From NCBI RefSeq assembly GCF_030388665.1, contig NZ_CP128846.1, forward strand, positions 3,946,001-4,010,000: a stretch of 64,000 nucleotides of DNA, in the 5' to 3' direction. How positions within the stretch are numbered: position 1 is the first letter of the stretch; each line of letters opens with the position of its first letter. The translations under genes and the position numbers were made by a program. Origin of the DNA: Streptomyces flavofungini (GTDB lineage: Bacteria > Actinomycetota > Actinomycetes > Streptomycetales > Streptomycetaceae). Under the pieces are notes generated by a model that made no database searches, was not told the DNA's origin, and worked only from the letters and a program-made list of their open reading frames with translations. Of this stretch, positions 4,841 to 46,246 are shown one piece after another.

Positions 4841-5863
4841 ATGGCGAGGCGGACGATCACCGTGCACCATGTGCGGGCCGTGCTGCGCGGGGCCGAGCGC
4901 GCGGGCGTCGACACCGTGCCGCTGCTGCAGGCCGCGCAGATACCGCCGCTGCTGCTCGGGGACGACCGGGCGAGGGTGACGGCCCCTCAGTTCGCCCGCC
5001 TCTTCCGGGAGTTGTACCGAGCGACGGACGACGAGTTCCTGGGGCTCGGCTCGTCGCCGAGCAGGCCGGGGACGTTCGCGATGATGTGCTACGCCGCGCT
5101 CGGCTGCCGCGATCTGGGGGCGGCGATGGAGCGCGGGGTGACGTTCTACGGGCTGTTCCCCGGCGGCCCCGACCTCGCCCTGACCCGCACGGACGACGGC
5201 GTCGTCTTCACCGTGCGCAACGACCTCGACCAGGACTTCTTCCTCGCCGAGTGCCTGGTCATCATCTGGCACCGGCTGTGCAGCTGGCTGATCGGCCGCC
5301 GCATCGAGCTGCGCTGGGCCGACTTCGGGCATCCGCCGCCCCCGCACAAGGACGAGTACGAGGAGCTGTTCGGCTGCCCCGTCCGGTTCGGCGCGGAACG
5401 CACGGGTGCCGGGCTCGCCCCGCACTGGCTGGCCGCGCCGCTGGTGCGGGACGAGGACGCGCTGACGGCGATGTTGAGCCGGGCCCCGTTCGACCTGCTC
5501 TCGCGGCGGGAGTACGGGACGACGGTCGCCGAGCAGGTACGGCGGGCGCTCGCCGTGGCGCTGCGGGACTCGCCACGCCTTCCGTCCCTCGGCGAGATCG
5601 CGGCGCGGCTCGCGGTCAGCCCGGCGACGCTGCGCCGCAGGCTCGCGCAGGAGTCGACGTCGTACCAGCGGCTGAAGGACGCGGTGCGCAGGGACGCGGC
5701 GATCGCGGGGCTCGTGGAGGGGCGCGAGCCGATCGCGCGGCTCGCGGCGCGGCTCGGCTTCTCCGAGGACACGGCGTTCCACCGGGCGTTCCGCAGGTGG
5801 ACGGGGACCACGCCGGGGGCGTACCGGGCGCAGGCGCCGGGCGGGCAGGAGCGCGCGGGGTGA
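4841..5863 (+). CDS. AraC-family transcriptional regulator (arabinose-binding-like N-terminal domain)
   Basis: Protein of 340 residues with the PF12625-type N-terminal domain typical of OruR/ArgR-like AraC regulators (LLGDDRARVTAPQFARLFRELYRATDDEFLGLG near residue 45) and a C-terminal AraC helix-turn-helix (PSLGEIAARLAVSPATLRRRL near 245, then IARLAARLGFSEDTAFHRAFRRWTG near 300). It acts in the cytoplasm as a DNA-binding activator; the ligand is unknown. The start at ATG 4841 gives the standard domain length. Its stop codon lies inside the first unit of a 14-bp tandem repeat. Confidence 0.88.
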   Translation: MARRTITVHHVRAVLRGAERAGVDTVPLLQAAQIPPLLLGDDRARVTAPQFARLFRELYRATDDEFLGLGSSPSRPGTFAMMCYAALGCRDLGAAMERGVTFYGLFPGGPDLALTRTDDGVVFTVRNDLDQDFFLAECLVIIWHRLCSWLIGRRIELRWADFGHPPPPHKDEYEELFGCPVRFGAERTGAGLAPHWLAAPLVRDEDALTAMLSRAPFDLLSRREYGTTVAEQVRRALAVALRDSPRLPSLGEIAARLAVSPATLRRRLAQESTSYQRLKDAVRRDAAIAGLVEGREPIARLAARLGFSEDTAFHRAFRRWTGTTPGAYRAQAPGGQERAG

Positions 5864-5924
5864 ACAGGGCGGGGTGAACAGGGCGGGGTGAACAGGGCGG
5901 GGTGAACAGGGCGGGGTGAACAGG
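5861..5924. repeat. 14-bp tandem repeat at the AraC gene stop
   Basis: Four exact copies of TGAACAGGGCGGGG begin at 5861, 5875, 5889 and 5903, with a partial fifth (TGAACAGG) at 5917. The TGA of the first copy is the stop codon of the upstream AraC-type gene. Confidence 0.95.
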
Positions 5925-41521: not shown

Positions 41522-42997
41522 TCAGGACTTCTTCAGGACCGCCTTCATCACCGCCTTGGCGATCGGCGCGCCCAGCTTGCCGCCCGCGATCTCGGAGCGG
41601 GTGATGTCCATGTCCTCGGGGTCGACGAGCACCGCGACCGCCACCGGTGACGTGCCGTCGGACTGCTTGGCGTAGGACACGAACCACGCGTACGGCCGCT
41701 GGTCGCGCACGTTCGAGCCGTGCTGCGCGGTGCCGGGCTTGCCGCCGACGGTGACGCCGTCGATGGCCACCTTGTCGCCGGTGCCGTCGGTGACCGTGTA
41801 CTCCATCATCTCCTGCACCTTGCGCGCCGTCTCCGGCGAGACGGCCTGCTCCATCTCCTCCGGCTCCGTCTTCTCGACCGTCGAGAGGTCGGCGCCGCGC
41901 AACTCCTCGACCAGGTACGGCTTCATGAGCTTGCCGTCGTTGGCGAGGCCCGCGGTGACCATGGCCATCTGGAACGGCGTGGTGGTGACGCTGCCCTGGC
42001 CCATGCCGGTGAGCGCCGTCCCCGGCTTGTCCGGCTTCTCCGGGTAGCCGCTCGCGGCCGTCCGTACGGGCATGAACTGCTCTTCGTTGAAGCCGAACCG
42101 CTCCGCCGTCTCCCGCATCTTGTCCTTGCCGGTCCTGAGCGCCGCGTCCAGGAAGACGTTGTTGCACGACCACTGCATCGCGGTCTTCATCGACACCTTG
42201 TCGCACATGTCGTTCGGCACGACGTTGCCGATCTCCGTCGAACTCTGCGGCAGCCGGTAGGGGGCCCGCGCACGGGACCGCGTGTCGATGTCGTCGACCG
42301 TGCCGTGCTCCAGGGCTGCCGCCGCGGTGAGGATCTTGAAGGTCGAGCCCGGCGGGTACGCCTCACGGAACGCCCGGCTGTTGAGCGGCTTGGCCTTGTC
42401 CTTGCTGAGCTTCTCGAACGCCCGGCCGTCCTTGCCGGAGATCCCCGAGAACACCGACGGGTCGTACGAGGGCGTGCTCGCGAGCGCCAGGATCTTCCCG
42501 GTGCGCGGGTCGATGGCGACCACCGCGCCCTTGGCGTCCAGGTCGGTCAGGCCCTTGTAGGCGGCCTTCTGCGCCTTCGGGTCGATGGTCGTGACCACGT
42601 CGCCGCCCTTGGGCCGCTCACCGGTCAGGGTGTCGAGGGGCGAGCCCAGCAGCCTGCTGTCCCTGCCCGTGAGCAGGTCGTTGTGCACGCCCTCCAGGAA
42701 CGTCTGGCCCTGGGACTGCGAGAAGAAGCCGGTGACCGGCGCGTACATCGGGCCGTCCTTGTAGACCCGCTTGTACTTGAAGTCCGATCCCGGCGTGGTC
42801 ACGGAACCCGTGACGGCCTCGCCGCCCACGATGATGTCACCGCGCGGCTGGCCGAAGTCGGCTATCTTCACGCGCCGGTTCTGCTCGTGCTCGGCGAGGG
42901 TCTGGGCGCTGACGAACTGCACCCAGGTCGCGCGCACGAGGAGGGCGAGGACGAGCAGCCCGCAGAAGACGGCTGCGCGGCGGACGGTCTTGTTCAT
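41522..42997 (-). CDS. Penicillin-binding protein, transpeptidase (class B)
   Basis: Cell-wall transpeptidase of 491 residues with one N-terminal membrane anchor (AAVFCGLLVLALLVRATWVQF), a dimerisation region (about 40-160) and a transpeptidase domain. Catalytic motifs: STFK (near residue 220), SCN (near 280) and KPGTAQ (near 420). It resembles PbpA-type class B proteins of Streptomyces. ATG 42997 overlaps the stop of a mini-ORF (ATGA), the last link of a chain reaching back to the lipoprotein esterase gene. Between 41441 and 41521 lie short direct repeats. Confidence 0.93.
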   Translation of the reverse strand: MNKTVRRAAVFCGLLVLALLVRATWVQFVSAQTLAEHEQNRRVKIADFGQPRGDIIVGGEAVTGSVTTPGSDFKYKRVYKDGPMYAPVTGFFSQSQGQTFLEGVHNDLLTGRDSRLLGSPLDTLTGERPKGGDVVTTIDPKAQKAAYKGLTDLDAKGAVVAIDPRTGKILALASTPSYDPSVFSGISGKDGRAFEKLSKDKAKPLNSRAFREAYPPGSTFKILTAAAALEHGTVDDIDTRSRARAPYRLPQSSTEIGNVVPNDMCDKVSMKTAMQWSCNNVFLDAALRTGKDKMRETAERFGFNEEQFMPVRTAASGYPEKPDKPGTALTGMGQGSVTTTPFQMAMVTAGLANDGKLMKPYLVEELRGADLSTVEKTEPEEMEQAVSPETARKVQEMMEYTVTDGTGDKVAIDGVTVGGKPGTAQHGSNVRDQRPYAWFVSYAKQSDGTSPVAVAVLVDPEDMDITRSEIAGGKLGAPIAKAVMKAVLKKS

Positions 42998-43084
42998 CGG
43001 TCGCTCTCGTTTTCGCTCTCGTTCATCGGTCGCTCTCGTAGTCGCTCTCGTTCATCGGTCGCCCTCGTAGTCGCTCTCGTTCAT
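42994..43084 (-). repeat. 29-bp tandem repeat forming three overlapping mini-ORFs
   Basis: Three units of about 29 bp each hold ATGAACGAGAGC and end in GACCGATGA. Each opens an 11-codon frame (10 residues plus stop): 43052-43084 (MNESDYEGDR), 43023-43055 (MNESDYESDR) and 42994-43026 (MNESENESDR). Every stop overlaps the next ATG as ATGA. The first ATG overlaps the esterase stop (43081-43083); the last stop overlaps the penicillin-binding protein ATG. Whether the mini-ORFs are translated is unknown. Confidence 0.9.
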
Positions 43085-44157
43085 CGTCTGCTGCGCTCCT
43101 GGTTCTTGGCCGCCCCGTGCGGGGGCCGCGGGCTCTGGTCGGTGAGGAAGCCGAGGACGGTGCCGGTGGTGTCCAGCGCCTTGCTGGCCGGGCCGAAGCC
43201 CTTGGGCGGGGTGACGCGCGTTCCGGGCCAGGTGTGACCGGCGTCGCGCACGACGAGGAGTTCGACGGGGACCGTGCCGGGGCCGGGACGCCACACGGTG
43301 CGGTCGTAGCCCTTGCGGGACTGCTCGGCCGGGGGCTTCGTACGACCGGCCGTGGCAAAGGCCTTGACGCTCGAGCGGGCCGACTTGGTTGCCATGATGG
43401 GCTCCTGGCCCTTGGGGGCGGGCCCGGGCCGGGCCAGGCCCGTGACCGGACGCACCGGGTCCTTGGCGCCGTAGACCACCATCACCGGCACCGGCCCCTT
43501 CGGCCGCACCTCGTCCCGCCCGGTGGGCAGCTGCCCCGCGACCGACACCGCCCCCGCCACCAGCTTCGGCCGGTCCGCCGCCACCCGCAGCGCCATCGAG
43601 CCGCCGTTGGAGAACCCCACGACGTACACCCGCCGGGGGTCGGCCCGCTCCGTGCGGACCAGCTTGTCGACCAGGGCCTGCGTGAAGCGCACGTCGGCGT
43701 CGGGGTCCGGGCGCAGCCGGGACGGCGCGGTGCCCGCGCCCCACGTCTTGCGCAGGGCCTCCGGGTAGGCGACCAGCATCCCGCGCGCCTTGGCGGCCTC
43801 GTTCAGGCCGGTCAGCTCGCGCATCTCGGCGGGGTCGGCGCCGCGGCCGTGGAAGGCGACGACGAGCGGGCGCGGGCCCGAGCCGGGCGCGGTGGGCTTG
43901 TGCAGCAGGTAGTCGCGGGTGGTGCCGTCCACGCGCAGCCGCTCGCGGGTGTCGGCGGCGGCCGACGGCTTCGCGGAGTGCGAGGACTGCGGGGACTTCG
44001 AGGACTTCGAGGACGTGGCGGAGTCGGACCCGGAGTCGGATGCGTCGGCGCAGCCCGCCGTGAGGGCGAGGCCCACGACGAGGACACCGGACCAGCGGCG
44101 CACGGCACTCCGACGACGTACACGAGCGGAGGCGGGCCGTACCGAAGAGAGCGTCAT
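43081..44157 (-). CDS. Alpha/beta hydrolase lipoprotein, LpqC/PHB depolymerase-like esterase
   Basis: Secreted, membrane-anchored esterase of 358 residues. Lipobox LTAGC near residue 35 after VLVVGLALTAG. A Ser/Lys-rich linker with SSKSSKSPQSS follows. The hydrolase fold shows LVVAFHGRGADPAEMRELTGLNEAAKARGMLVAYPEAL split over several strands, nucleophile GFSNGGSMAL (near 175) and His in DAGHTWPG (near 315). It ends with an ATGA overlap into the mini-ORF repeat, so expression of the penicillin-binding protein may depend on it. Confidence 0.87.
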   Translation of the reverse strand: MTLSSVRPASARVRRRSAVRRWSGVLVVGLALTAGCADASDSGSDSATSSKSSKSPQSSHSAKPSAAADTRERLRVDGTTRDYLLHKPTAPGSGPRPLVVAFHGRGADPAEMRELTGLNEAAKARGMLVAYPEALRKTWGAGTAPSRLRPDPDADVRFTQALVDKLVRTERADPRRVYVVGFSNGGSMALRVAADRPKLVAGAVSVAGQLPTGRDEVRPKGPVPVMVVYGAKDPVRPVTGLARPGPAPKGQEPIMATKSARSSVKAFATAGRTKPPAEQSRKGYDRTVWRPGPGTVPVELLVVRDAGHTWPGTRVTPPKGFGPASKALDTTGTVLGFLTDQSPRPPHGAAKNQERSRR

Positions 44158-44198
44158 ACCGGGAGCAGATCAGCGCCGGGCCCCCTATGTCCAAGTTC

Positions 44199-44233
44199 GA
44201 TATCACTCACGTATTCATTAATCTGCGATATCG
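44199..44233. promoter_or_regulatory. Inverted repeat in the esterase/LysR divergent region
   Basis: CGATATC (44199-44205) and GATATCG (44227-44233) flank an AT-rich centre. This lies just before the LysR gene start and could be its binding site. Confidence 0.5.
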
Positions 44234-44242
44234 TCGCTGCTC

Positions 44243-45211
44243 GTGGACCTGATGCGGCACCTGGAGTGCTTTGTGGCTGTTGCGGAAGAGTCACATTTCG
44301 GTCGGGCCGCCGAACGCCTCGGCATGGCCCAGCCGCCCCTGTCGCAACGCGTCCAGCGTCTGGAGCGCCACCTCGGCGTGCGTCTCTTCGAGCGCACCAG
44401 CAGGCAGGTCACCATCACCAAGGCCGGGACACTCCTCCTCGACGAGGCCCGCGAACTGCTCGCCCGTTCCGAGGCGCTGCTCGCCACCGCCCGCCGCATC
44501 CGCGACGGCGAGAGCGGCCTGCTGCGCGCCGCGCTCCCGCCGGACATCGCGGGCGAGACCGTCGCCGCCCTCCTCGCCGACTTCCGCCGCCACCACGCGG
44601 GCGTCGAGCTGGAGCTGCGCGAGCTGACCACCACCCAGCAGCTCGCCCAGCTCACCGCGCACGACCTGGACGTCGGCCTCATCCACCACCCGTGCGACGT
44701 CACCGGCCTCGAACTCGGCCCGGTGCTGCGCCGCGAGGTCGGCGTGCTGCTGCCGCGCGGCGCCCCCGCCGCCGCGCTCGCCGAGGTCCCGCTGACCGCC
44801 CTCAGCGGCTACGACCTGGTCCTCTTCCACCGCAGCGCCGCCCCCGCCCTGCACGACGACCTGCTCACCACCTGTGCCCGCGACGGCTACACCCCCACCG
44901 CCGTCCGGCACGGCCAGGGCGCCAGCTTCGTGCGCGGCCTGATCCTGTCCTCGCACGCCGTCGCCTTCAGCCCCAAGGACGCCCACCCCGCCCCGCCCCC
45001 GGGCACCGAGCCCGACATCGTGTGGCGGCCGCTCGCCGGCGCCCCGCTGGCCTGGCGGCACTCGGTGGCCTGGCCGAAGGGGCGCGGCGACACCGCGGTG
45101 GTGGCGTTCGCCGAAGCGGTCACGCGCGCCCTGCACGACACCGCCGCCCTGACCGCCGACGCGCCCCCGCGTCCGCTCCATCTGCGTCCGACCGCGGAGT
45201 ACTGGCTGTGA
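44243..45211 (+). CDS. LysR-family transcriptional regulator
   Basis: Regulator of 322 residues. The LysR helix-turn-helix is MRHLECFVAVAEESHFGRAAERLGMAQPPLSQRVQRLERHLGVRLFER, and the C-terminal part is a two-lobed substrate-binding domain (FRRHHAGVELELRELTTTQQLAQL and onward). The start is GTG 44243, or ATG 44252 three codons later. It is translationally coupled to the downstream beta-lactamase-like gene by GTGA. LysR control of beta-lactamases is well known (AmpR, BlaA), but usually with divergent genes; here both are on one strand. Confidence 0.9.
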   Translation: MDLMRHLECFVAVAEESHFGRAAERLGMAQPPLSQRVQRLERHLGVRLFERTSRQVTITKAGTLLLDEARELLARSEALLATARRIRDGESGLLRAALPPDIAGETVAALLADFRRHHAGVELELRELTTTQQLAQLTAHDLDVGLIHHPCDVTGLELGPVLRREVGVLLPRGAPAAALAEVPLTALSGYDLVLFHRSAAPALHDDLLTTCARDGYTPTAVRHGQGASFVRGLILSSHAVAFSPKDAHPAPPPGTEPDIVWRPLAGAPLAWRHSVAWPKGRGDTAVVAFAEAVTRALHDTAALTADAPPRPLHLRPTAEYWL

Positions 45212-46083
45212 CCACGACCCCCATCCGTCTCCAGGACGCGTTCGCCGAAGCCGGCGTCACGGGCCGGCTGCACGCCGTCGACATCGACTCCGGCGCGGAG
45301 GTCGGCGTCGGCGCCGACCAGCCCGTCGTCACCGCGAGCGTCCACAAGCTGTGCGTCCTCGTCACGCTGCACGAGCAGGCCGCGGCGGGCCGCCTCGACC
45401 TCACCGAGCAGATCGAGTGCCCGCCCGCCGACCGCACGTCCGGCCCGACCGGGCTCGCCGCGATGCTCGACCCCGTACGGATGTCCCTGCGCGACGCCGC
45501 GTACCTGATGATGGCCGTCAGCGACAACACCGCCGCCGAACTCCTCCTCGGCCGCGTCGGCCTGGACGCCGTCAACGCCACCACGGCCCGCCTCGGACTC
45601 GCCCGCACCCGCGCCGTGCACAGCTTCCGCGAGATGTTCGCGTCCATGCGCGAGGACGCGGGCCCCGGCGGCGCCCAGGCCCTGACCGACCCCTACGTCA
45701 TCGCACGGCTGCGCGCCCTCGACCCCGCCCGCACCAACCACAGCACCCCGCGCGACATGACGCGCCTGCTCGGCGCGGTCTGGCGGGACGAGGCCTGCAC
45801 CCCCGAACACGGCGCCGCCATGCGTCGCGTCCTCGGCCTCCAGGTCTGGCCGCACCGCCTCGCCGCGGGATTCCCCTTCGACGACGTCCACGTCGCGGGC
45901 AAGACCGGCAGCCTGCCGACCGTCCGCAACGAGGTCGGCGTCGTCGAGTACCCCGACGGCGGCCGCTACGCCGTCGCCGTCTTCACCCGCGCCGCCCGCA
46001 CCGCGGCCACGCTGCCGTCGGCGGACGCGGTCATCGGGACGGCGGCGCGGATCGCGGTGGAGGCGCTGCGGGCGCCGTCGTGA
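45208..46083 (+). CDS. Class A beta-lactamase-like serine hydrolase
   Basis: Protein of 291 residues with class A motifs: SVHK (Ser70-x-x-Lys, near residue 43), SDN (near 112) and KTGS (near 225). I do not see a standard signal peptide, so the form encoded may be cytoplasmic. The omega-loop ExxLN motif of true beta-lactamases is not recognisable, so hydrolysis of penicillins is uncertain and a related esterase or peptidase role is possible. The GTG start overlaps the LysR stop. The stop codon is the first TGA of a 24-bp repeat. Confidence 0.82.
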   Translation: MTTTPIRLQDAFAEAGVTGRLHAVDIDSGAEVGVGADQPVVTASVHKLCVLVTLHEQAAAGRLDLTEQIECPPADRTSGPTGLAAMLDPVRMSLRDAAYLMMAVSDNTAAELLLGRVGLDAVNATTARLGLARTRAVHSFREMFASMREDAGPGGAQALTDPYVIARLRALDPARTNHSTPRDMTRLLGAVWRDEACTPEHGAAMRRVLGLQVWPHRLAAGFPFDDVHVAGKTGSLPTVRNEVGVVEYPDGGRYAVAVFTRAARTAATLPSADAVIGTAARIAVEALRAPS

Positions 46084-46192
46084 GGGCGGGCTCGGCCCGG
46101 TTCATGAGGACGGGCTCGGCCCGGTTCATGAGGACGGGCTCGGCCCGGTTCATGAGGGCGGGCTCGGCCCGGTTCATGAGGGCGGGCTCAGG
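46081..46192. repeat. 24-bp tandem repeat after the beta-lactamase-like gene
   Basis: Units begin at 46081, 46105, 46129, 46153 and 46177 (TGAGG(A/G)CGGGCTCGGCCCGG plus TTCA). The fifth is partial and further degenerate copies follow to about 46250. The first TGA is the stop codon of the gene. Confidence 0.92.
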
Positions 46193-46246
46193 TCCAGGCG
46201 GACGCCGTTCATGAGGGCGGGCGCGGCCCGGTCGTGGGGGGCGGGC

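Follow-up and report, generated by a model that had tools for sequence, protein, structure and literature searches.

The closest described counterparts of the arrangement analyzed here are the mycobacterial MIRUs, short mobile repeats that are inserted at start codons and whose reading frame thereby becomes −4-coupled (PMC12548453, Brown and Wade 2025, with reference to Supply et al. 1997). At senX3-regX3 they stand in tandem, three 77-bp MIRUs in H37Rv, and two of 77 bp plus one of 53 bp in CDC1551 (Rifat et al. 2014, PMC4213456), both lengths being 2 mod 3 when computed from these figures. A control of the senX3-regX3 operon by MIRU copy number has been suggested (PMC3599157). Further, the consulted part of PMC12548453 covers uORF and bicistronic designs, in which a short coupled ORF lies directly before a gene and its peptide need not matter.

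In the window, that is, the whole 64,000-nt stretch of DNA analyzed, a mini-ORF chain on the minus strand links the stop of an esterase-like alpha/beta hydrolase gene (43081..44157, 358 aa; Pfam DLH, Abhydrolase_2 and others) to the start of a PbpA-type class B penicillin-binding protein (PBP) gene (41522..42997, 491 aa; Pfam Transpeptidase and PBP_dimer_2) through four ATGA overlaps and three 29-bp units. Among solved structures, 3lo7 and 3un7, both chains of penicillin-binding protein A, were the best relatives of the PBP. The esterase 3′-end reads ...CGC AGC AGA CGA TGA, and its ATGA supplies the ATG of mini-ORF 1 (43084–43082), which overlaps the esterase TGA (43083–43081). Mini-ORF 1 (43052..43084), mini-ORF 2 (43023..43055), and mini-ORF 3 (42994..43026), each 33 nt including the stop, encode MNESDYEGDR, MNESDYESDR, and MNESENESDR, respectively, and the stop of the last overlaps the PBP ATG (42997–42995). 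TRF reported the array at 42988..43086 (minus strand) with a period of 29, 3.4 copies and 94% matches, and detected a 12-bp near-repeat inside the unit. The sequence and TRF confirmed the preliminary description of three 33-nt ATGA-linked mini-ORFs derived from a 29-bp repeat, and its frame arithmetic (29 + 4 = 33) was correct, as 29 is 2 mod 3 and units can therefore be added while the chain is kept. Its account of the esterase as secreted was revised, because the N-terminal ...GLALTAGC resembles a lipoprotein signal; the enzyme is probably a membrane-anchored, putative lipoprotein rather than freely secreted.

Similar to the MIRUs, the window array consists of tandem units between two operon genes with a unit ORF coupled at −4 nt, the unit lengths are 2 mod 3 in both (77 and 53 vs. 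17, 23, and 29 bp, the latter including related species), and the copy number varies, between strains for MIRUs and between species here. The design had been put forward as undescribed, and this could not be upheld, as the cited portions of PMC12548453 and PMC4213456 already present a repeat-borne ORF coupled at −4 nt and its tandem occurrence in senX3-regX3. No Streptomyces case of a tandem-duplicated coupled overlap was found in the open-access texts searched. All four junctions carry the NTGA stop/start overlap of −4 termination-reinitiation coupling, each as ATGA; the window differs from ordinary −4 coupling in that three extra stop-restart steps follow one another between esterase and PBP. 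As in uORF and bicistronic designs, a short coupled ORF immediately precedes a gene, but the window has a tandem array within an operon, behind a full gene.

A genome-contig scan returned 59 loci, 58 from Streptomyces and one from a Lachnospiraceae MAG, and tblastn with the esterase placed it before the PBP in five of the 58 Streptomyces loci. The window included, the junction is therefore common to six species, with 0, 0, 1, 1, 3, and 4 units. S. lasiicapitis (L005) and S. aureoverticillatus (L006) have zero units and a plain ATGA overlap, S. alboflavus (L003) has one 17-bp unit (MNVSDR), S. aurantiacus (L007) one 23-bp unit (MNPERTDR), the window three 29-bp units, and S. flavofungini (L004) four 17-bp units (MNESDR three times and MSVSDR). 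The predicted variation in unit number among related Streptomyces was thus borne out. Strongly overlapping draws of 392, 296, 383, 392, and 393 genomes were also searched, with a cut-off of 1e-50 or 1e-45 in all draws but the first, at which remote members could escape; no further species of the clade was found in them, and the only additions were G329 and G552, which did not differ from L006 (2000 nt compared) and L004 (1800 nt compared), respectively, so that n = 6 species stays.

In S. aurantiacus, the unit exactly repeats CCGGAGCGTACCGACCGATGAAC, which comprises the esterase tail plus the PBP start, indicating that units can arise locally. From the letters, the 17-bp unit resembles 20 bp copied from an S. 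flavofungini-type tail with one codon lost, and a 12-bp internal repeat added to the 17-bp unit would account for the 29-bp one. These findings bear on whether a mobile, MIRU-like interspersed element was inserted at the start codons. The −4 architecture and 2-mod-3 length of the 77- and 53-bp MIRUs would fit such an origin, but the only three genome matches to the window unit (pattern search, ≤3 mismatches) all lie inside the array, and the S. aurantiacus unit copies its local junction, making an inserted element very improbable. The window units are shorter than MIRUs, occupy a single locus rather than being interspersed, and show no mobile insertion, the S. aurantiacus unit coming from its own junction and the 17- and 29-bp units presumably being local as well; judged by their distribution in the genome and their local origin, they are not MIRU-like elements. 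A 201-bp junction query gave one further weak match, 79% over about 60 nt, among the 40 of 82 candidates scored; it is a repeat similar to the window unit, sitting at about 1500–1560 of L002 on a TGA resembling a gene stop.

The substitutions among units change amino acids, so the mini-ORF peptides look unconserved. That the 6- to 10-residue peptides themselves act could be read from the acidic-polar composition common to the 17- and 29-bp units; however, two species have none of these peptides, the 23-bp unit encodes the unrelated MNPERTDR, and the unit differences are amino-acid-changing, which together render a peptide function highly unlikely.

The unit lengths of 17, 23, and 29 bp all belong to the 2-mod-3 class that preserves the −4 chain. 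In simulated duplications across the ATGA of the two zero-unit species, 2-mod-3 lengths kept the chain in 542/549 cases in both L005 and L006, while 0-mod-3 lengths placed the first ATG in the PBP frame (556/567 and 558/567, respectively). Duplications of 1-mod-3 length broke the chain in all 527 cases in L006, and in L005 left, in 525 of 527, an open frame of >600 nt that was not that of the PBP. A complete −4 chain would therefore survive only duplications of 2-mod-3 length, and its perfect look would be the product of this frame filter rather than of peptide function. The chance that three unit lengths are all 2 mod 3 is p = 0.037 at 1/3 each and 0.098 at the pooled control rate, so the rule drawn from three lengths is suggestive only.

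To put the chain in genomic context, mini-ORF chains between ORFs of ≥300 nt were counted. The window contained seven, namely six single ones and the esterase-PBP triple, and a 400 kb sample of the same genome contained 42, of which 38 were single, three double, and one quadruple. The quadruple chain (L100) is composed of unequal GTGA mini-ORFs, and no chain of ≥3 equal units between ORFs of ≥300 nt occurred in the 400 kb, indicating that the esterase-PBP triple is more than chance. Among same-strand pairs of the sampled genome, the −4 overlap itself was the most frequent spacing (86/578 pairs).

Repeats at gene ends were assayed in a control set of 1.264 Mb (the window plus 60 stretches) with 949 ORFs from a simple codon-model ORF caller. 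Tandem repeats spanned 21/949 stops, vs. 3/920 starts (Fisher p = 0.00026) and 4/949 mid-gene points. At points 150 nt before stops the count was 5/949, while points 150 nt after stops, with 18/935, nearly matched the stops, so that 3′-ends are repeat-rich and the stop is not special. The periods at the 21 spanned stops, the esterase-PBP locus included, were 2, 0, and 1 mod 3 in 12, 7, and 2 cases, respectively; without this locus, 11/20 were 2 mod 3 (p = 0.038). Across 86 loci of other Streptomyces, 9/389 stops were repeat-spanned, three of them being the esterase-PBP junction and the other six distributing as 1, 1, and 4 over 2, 0, and 1 mod 3. When pooled without the esterase-PBP junction (n = 26), the counts were 12, 8, and 6 in the same order, and the bias was not significant (p = 0.34). 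As stop-spanning repeats of the sampled genome that have no coupled gene also lean to 2 mod 3, the 2-mod-3 rule need not reflect coupling.

A related pattern lies elsewhere in the window at 5855–5924 (plus strand), where a 14-bp repeat spans the stop of an AraC-family gene (Pfam) and forms a regular chain of four GTGA-joined VNRAG mini-ORFs. This chain runs into a 34-aa frame and not into a gene, so the mini-ORF pattern does not need a downstream gene in order to form. The window stops spanned by repeats were those at 5863 (period 14), 38599 (24), 41440 (23), 41522 (8), 43081 (29), and 54045 (15). Two GTGA mini-ORFs are formed in L102 (874–933) by a 20-bp repeat that follows an NlpC/P60-family gene.

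On its other side the esterase-PBP pair faces a divergent LysR-family regulator gene (44243..45211, plus strand; Pfam HTH_1 and LysR_substrate) across an intergenic region at 44158..44242. The regulator gene shares 4 nt with a beta-lactamase-family gene (45208..46083, plus strand; Pfam Beta-lactamase2), at whose stop a 24-bp repeat of 4.5 copies begins (46079–46210, plus strand); this repeat reads through as a 44-aa frame, is joined by GTGA and ends in ATGA.

The KTG box is the usual motif of class B PBPs. At its position the window PBP (41522–42997, minus strand) carries KPG, which was present in 17 of the 59 PBPs compared (the window and 58 loci), the remaining 42 having KTG. The 16 KPG loci besides the window were L003–L014, L016, L038, L039, and L055, and a LysR orthologue was present at all 16 and at none of the 42 KTG loci. 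In the KPG locus of S. morookaense (L013, 2990–3010), the PBP start seems to be ATGA-overlapped with the stop of another upstream gene. One S. clavuligerus PBP has FTG in place of KTG, and KPG does not appear in the part of that text consulted (PMC9146315).

A codon tree of the PBPs joined the window with L003 (ultrafast bootstrap 89) and these with L004 (100), L006 with L007 (100) and these with L005 (99), and all six species together (94). The sisters of this clade were S. typhae (L008) and S. aureocirculatus (L039), both without the esterase. The 100 nt upstream of their PBP ATG matched the 100 nt upstream of the esterase ATG at 75–82 positions, in alignments of 100–105 columns that reached the start codon; the region between the esterase and LysR genes is accordingly homologous, up to the start codon, to the pre-PBP region of the two sister species. 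On the PBP tree alone, a single gain of the esterase precisely at the PBP start codon would be the simplest account. Against it, a remoter esterase (57–65%) stands beside an orthologous LysR gene (83–86% over the part compared) in L075, L081, L085, and L089. In L075, L081, and L089 a PBP gene lies 17–20 nt past this esterase and belongs to another family (29% identity to the window PBP), while the L085 sequence is too short to show the following gene. LysR-esterase-PBP may thus be an older order, with later loss or exchange, and such sets may recur with different PBPs, as in these three loci.

Since, in the window, the esterase separates the PBP from the LysR-facing control region and no space is left before the PBP ATG, the PBP probably depends on restarting ribosomes. 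Alternatively, the PBP could have a transcript or a start (e.g., a leaderless one) of its own, with the mini-ORFs as untranslated noise. Each array start has some SD-like purines, so a translation start within the array is compatible with the sequence; these are weak, with an anti-SD duplex of −3.9 to −7.1 kcal/mol across the six species, and the array starts are comparable in this respect to the zero-unit junctions (−5.8 and −7.1 kcal/mol). A consensus scan of 42900–44400 found no sigma-70-like promoter, a weak result for GC-rich promoters with 0.1 expected by chance, and no terminator. As the zero-unit species have no intergenic spacer, and the control region homologous to that upstream of the sister species' PBP precedes the esterase, independent expression of the PBP is considered quite unlikely. 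The 181-nt junction showed no sign of RNA structure, folding worse than shuffles (z = +1.53, with 187/200 shuffles at least as good).

These results favor, with a probability of about 0.68, a frame-neutral VNTR lying on a −4 overlap, with the PBP reached by termination-reinitiation. A minisatellite would have expanded locally by tandem duplication across the pre-existing ATGA overlap of esterase and PBP, the latter probably relying on ribosomes that finish the esterase and then restart. Series termination-reinitiation through the mini-ORFs is the likeliest course, and ribosomes probably traverse them in this way at a cost low enough to be tolerated. Changes in unit number probably have a near-neutral or modest effect.

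One point against neutrality is that two neighboring species carry 3 and 4 units, which could also result from selection on the number. Mini-ORF number might set the PBP:esterase ratio, a fixed share of ribosomes being lost or gained at each step and whole-unit changes adjusting it. Close relatives do differ, with 1, 3, and 4 units in one subclade, every unit length keeps the chain, dosage could matter in an operon opposite a LysR regulator and a beta-lactamase-family gene, and copy-number control has been suggested for the MIRUs of senX3-regX3 (in the part of PMC3599157 cited above). However, neither the predicted anti-SD pairing nor the predicted local folding at the PBP start showed a trend with unit number in the six species. 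Further, as two species lack units, stop-spanning repeats recur where nothing is coupled, and the chain at 5855–5924 is uncoupled, no sign of copy-number tuning was seen, and we regard such tuning as unlikely. Its more elaborate form, a slippage-driven translational rheostat, is doubtful; here the PBP:esterase ratio would be a power of a single reinitiation efficiency, shifted by heritable whole-unit changes, with 2-mod-3 lengths held by frame selection in an operon facing the LysR and beta-lactamase-family genes.

The six species offer a natural dose series, in which the same gene is preceded by 0, 1, 3, or 4 additional stop-restart steps. With this series, one could measure how efficient a single termination-reinitiation step is in an actinomycete, and test whether the 2-mod-3 frame filter decides the survival of tandem repeats where genes overlap. 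The array also points to plain tandem duplication, without a mobile element, as a possible source of a MIRU-type design.
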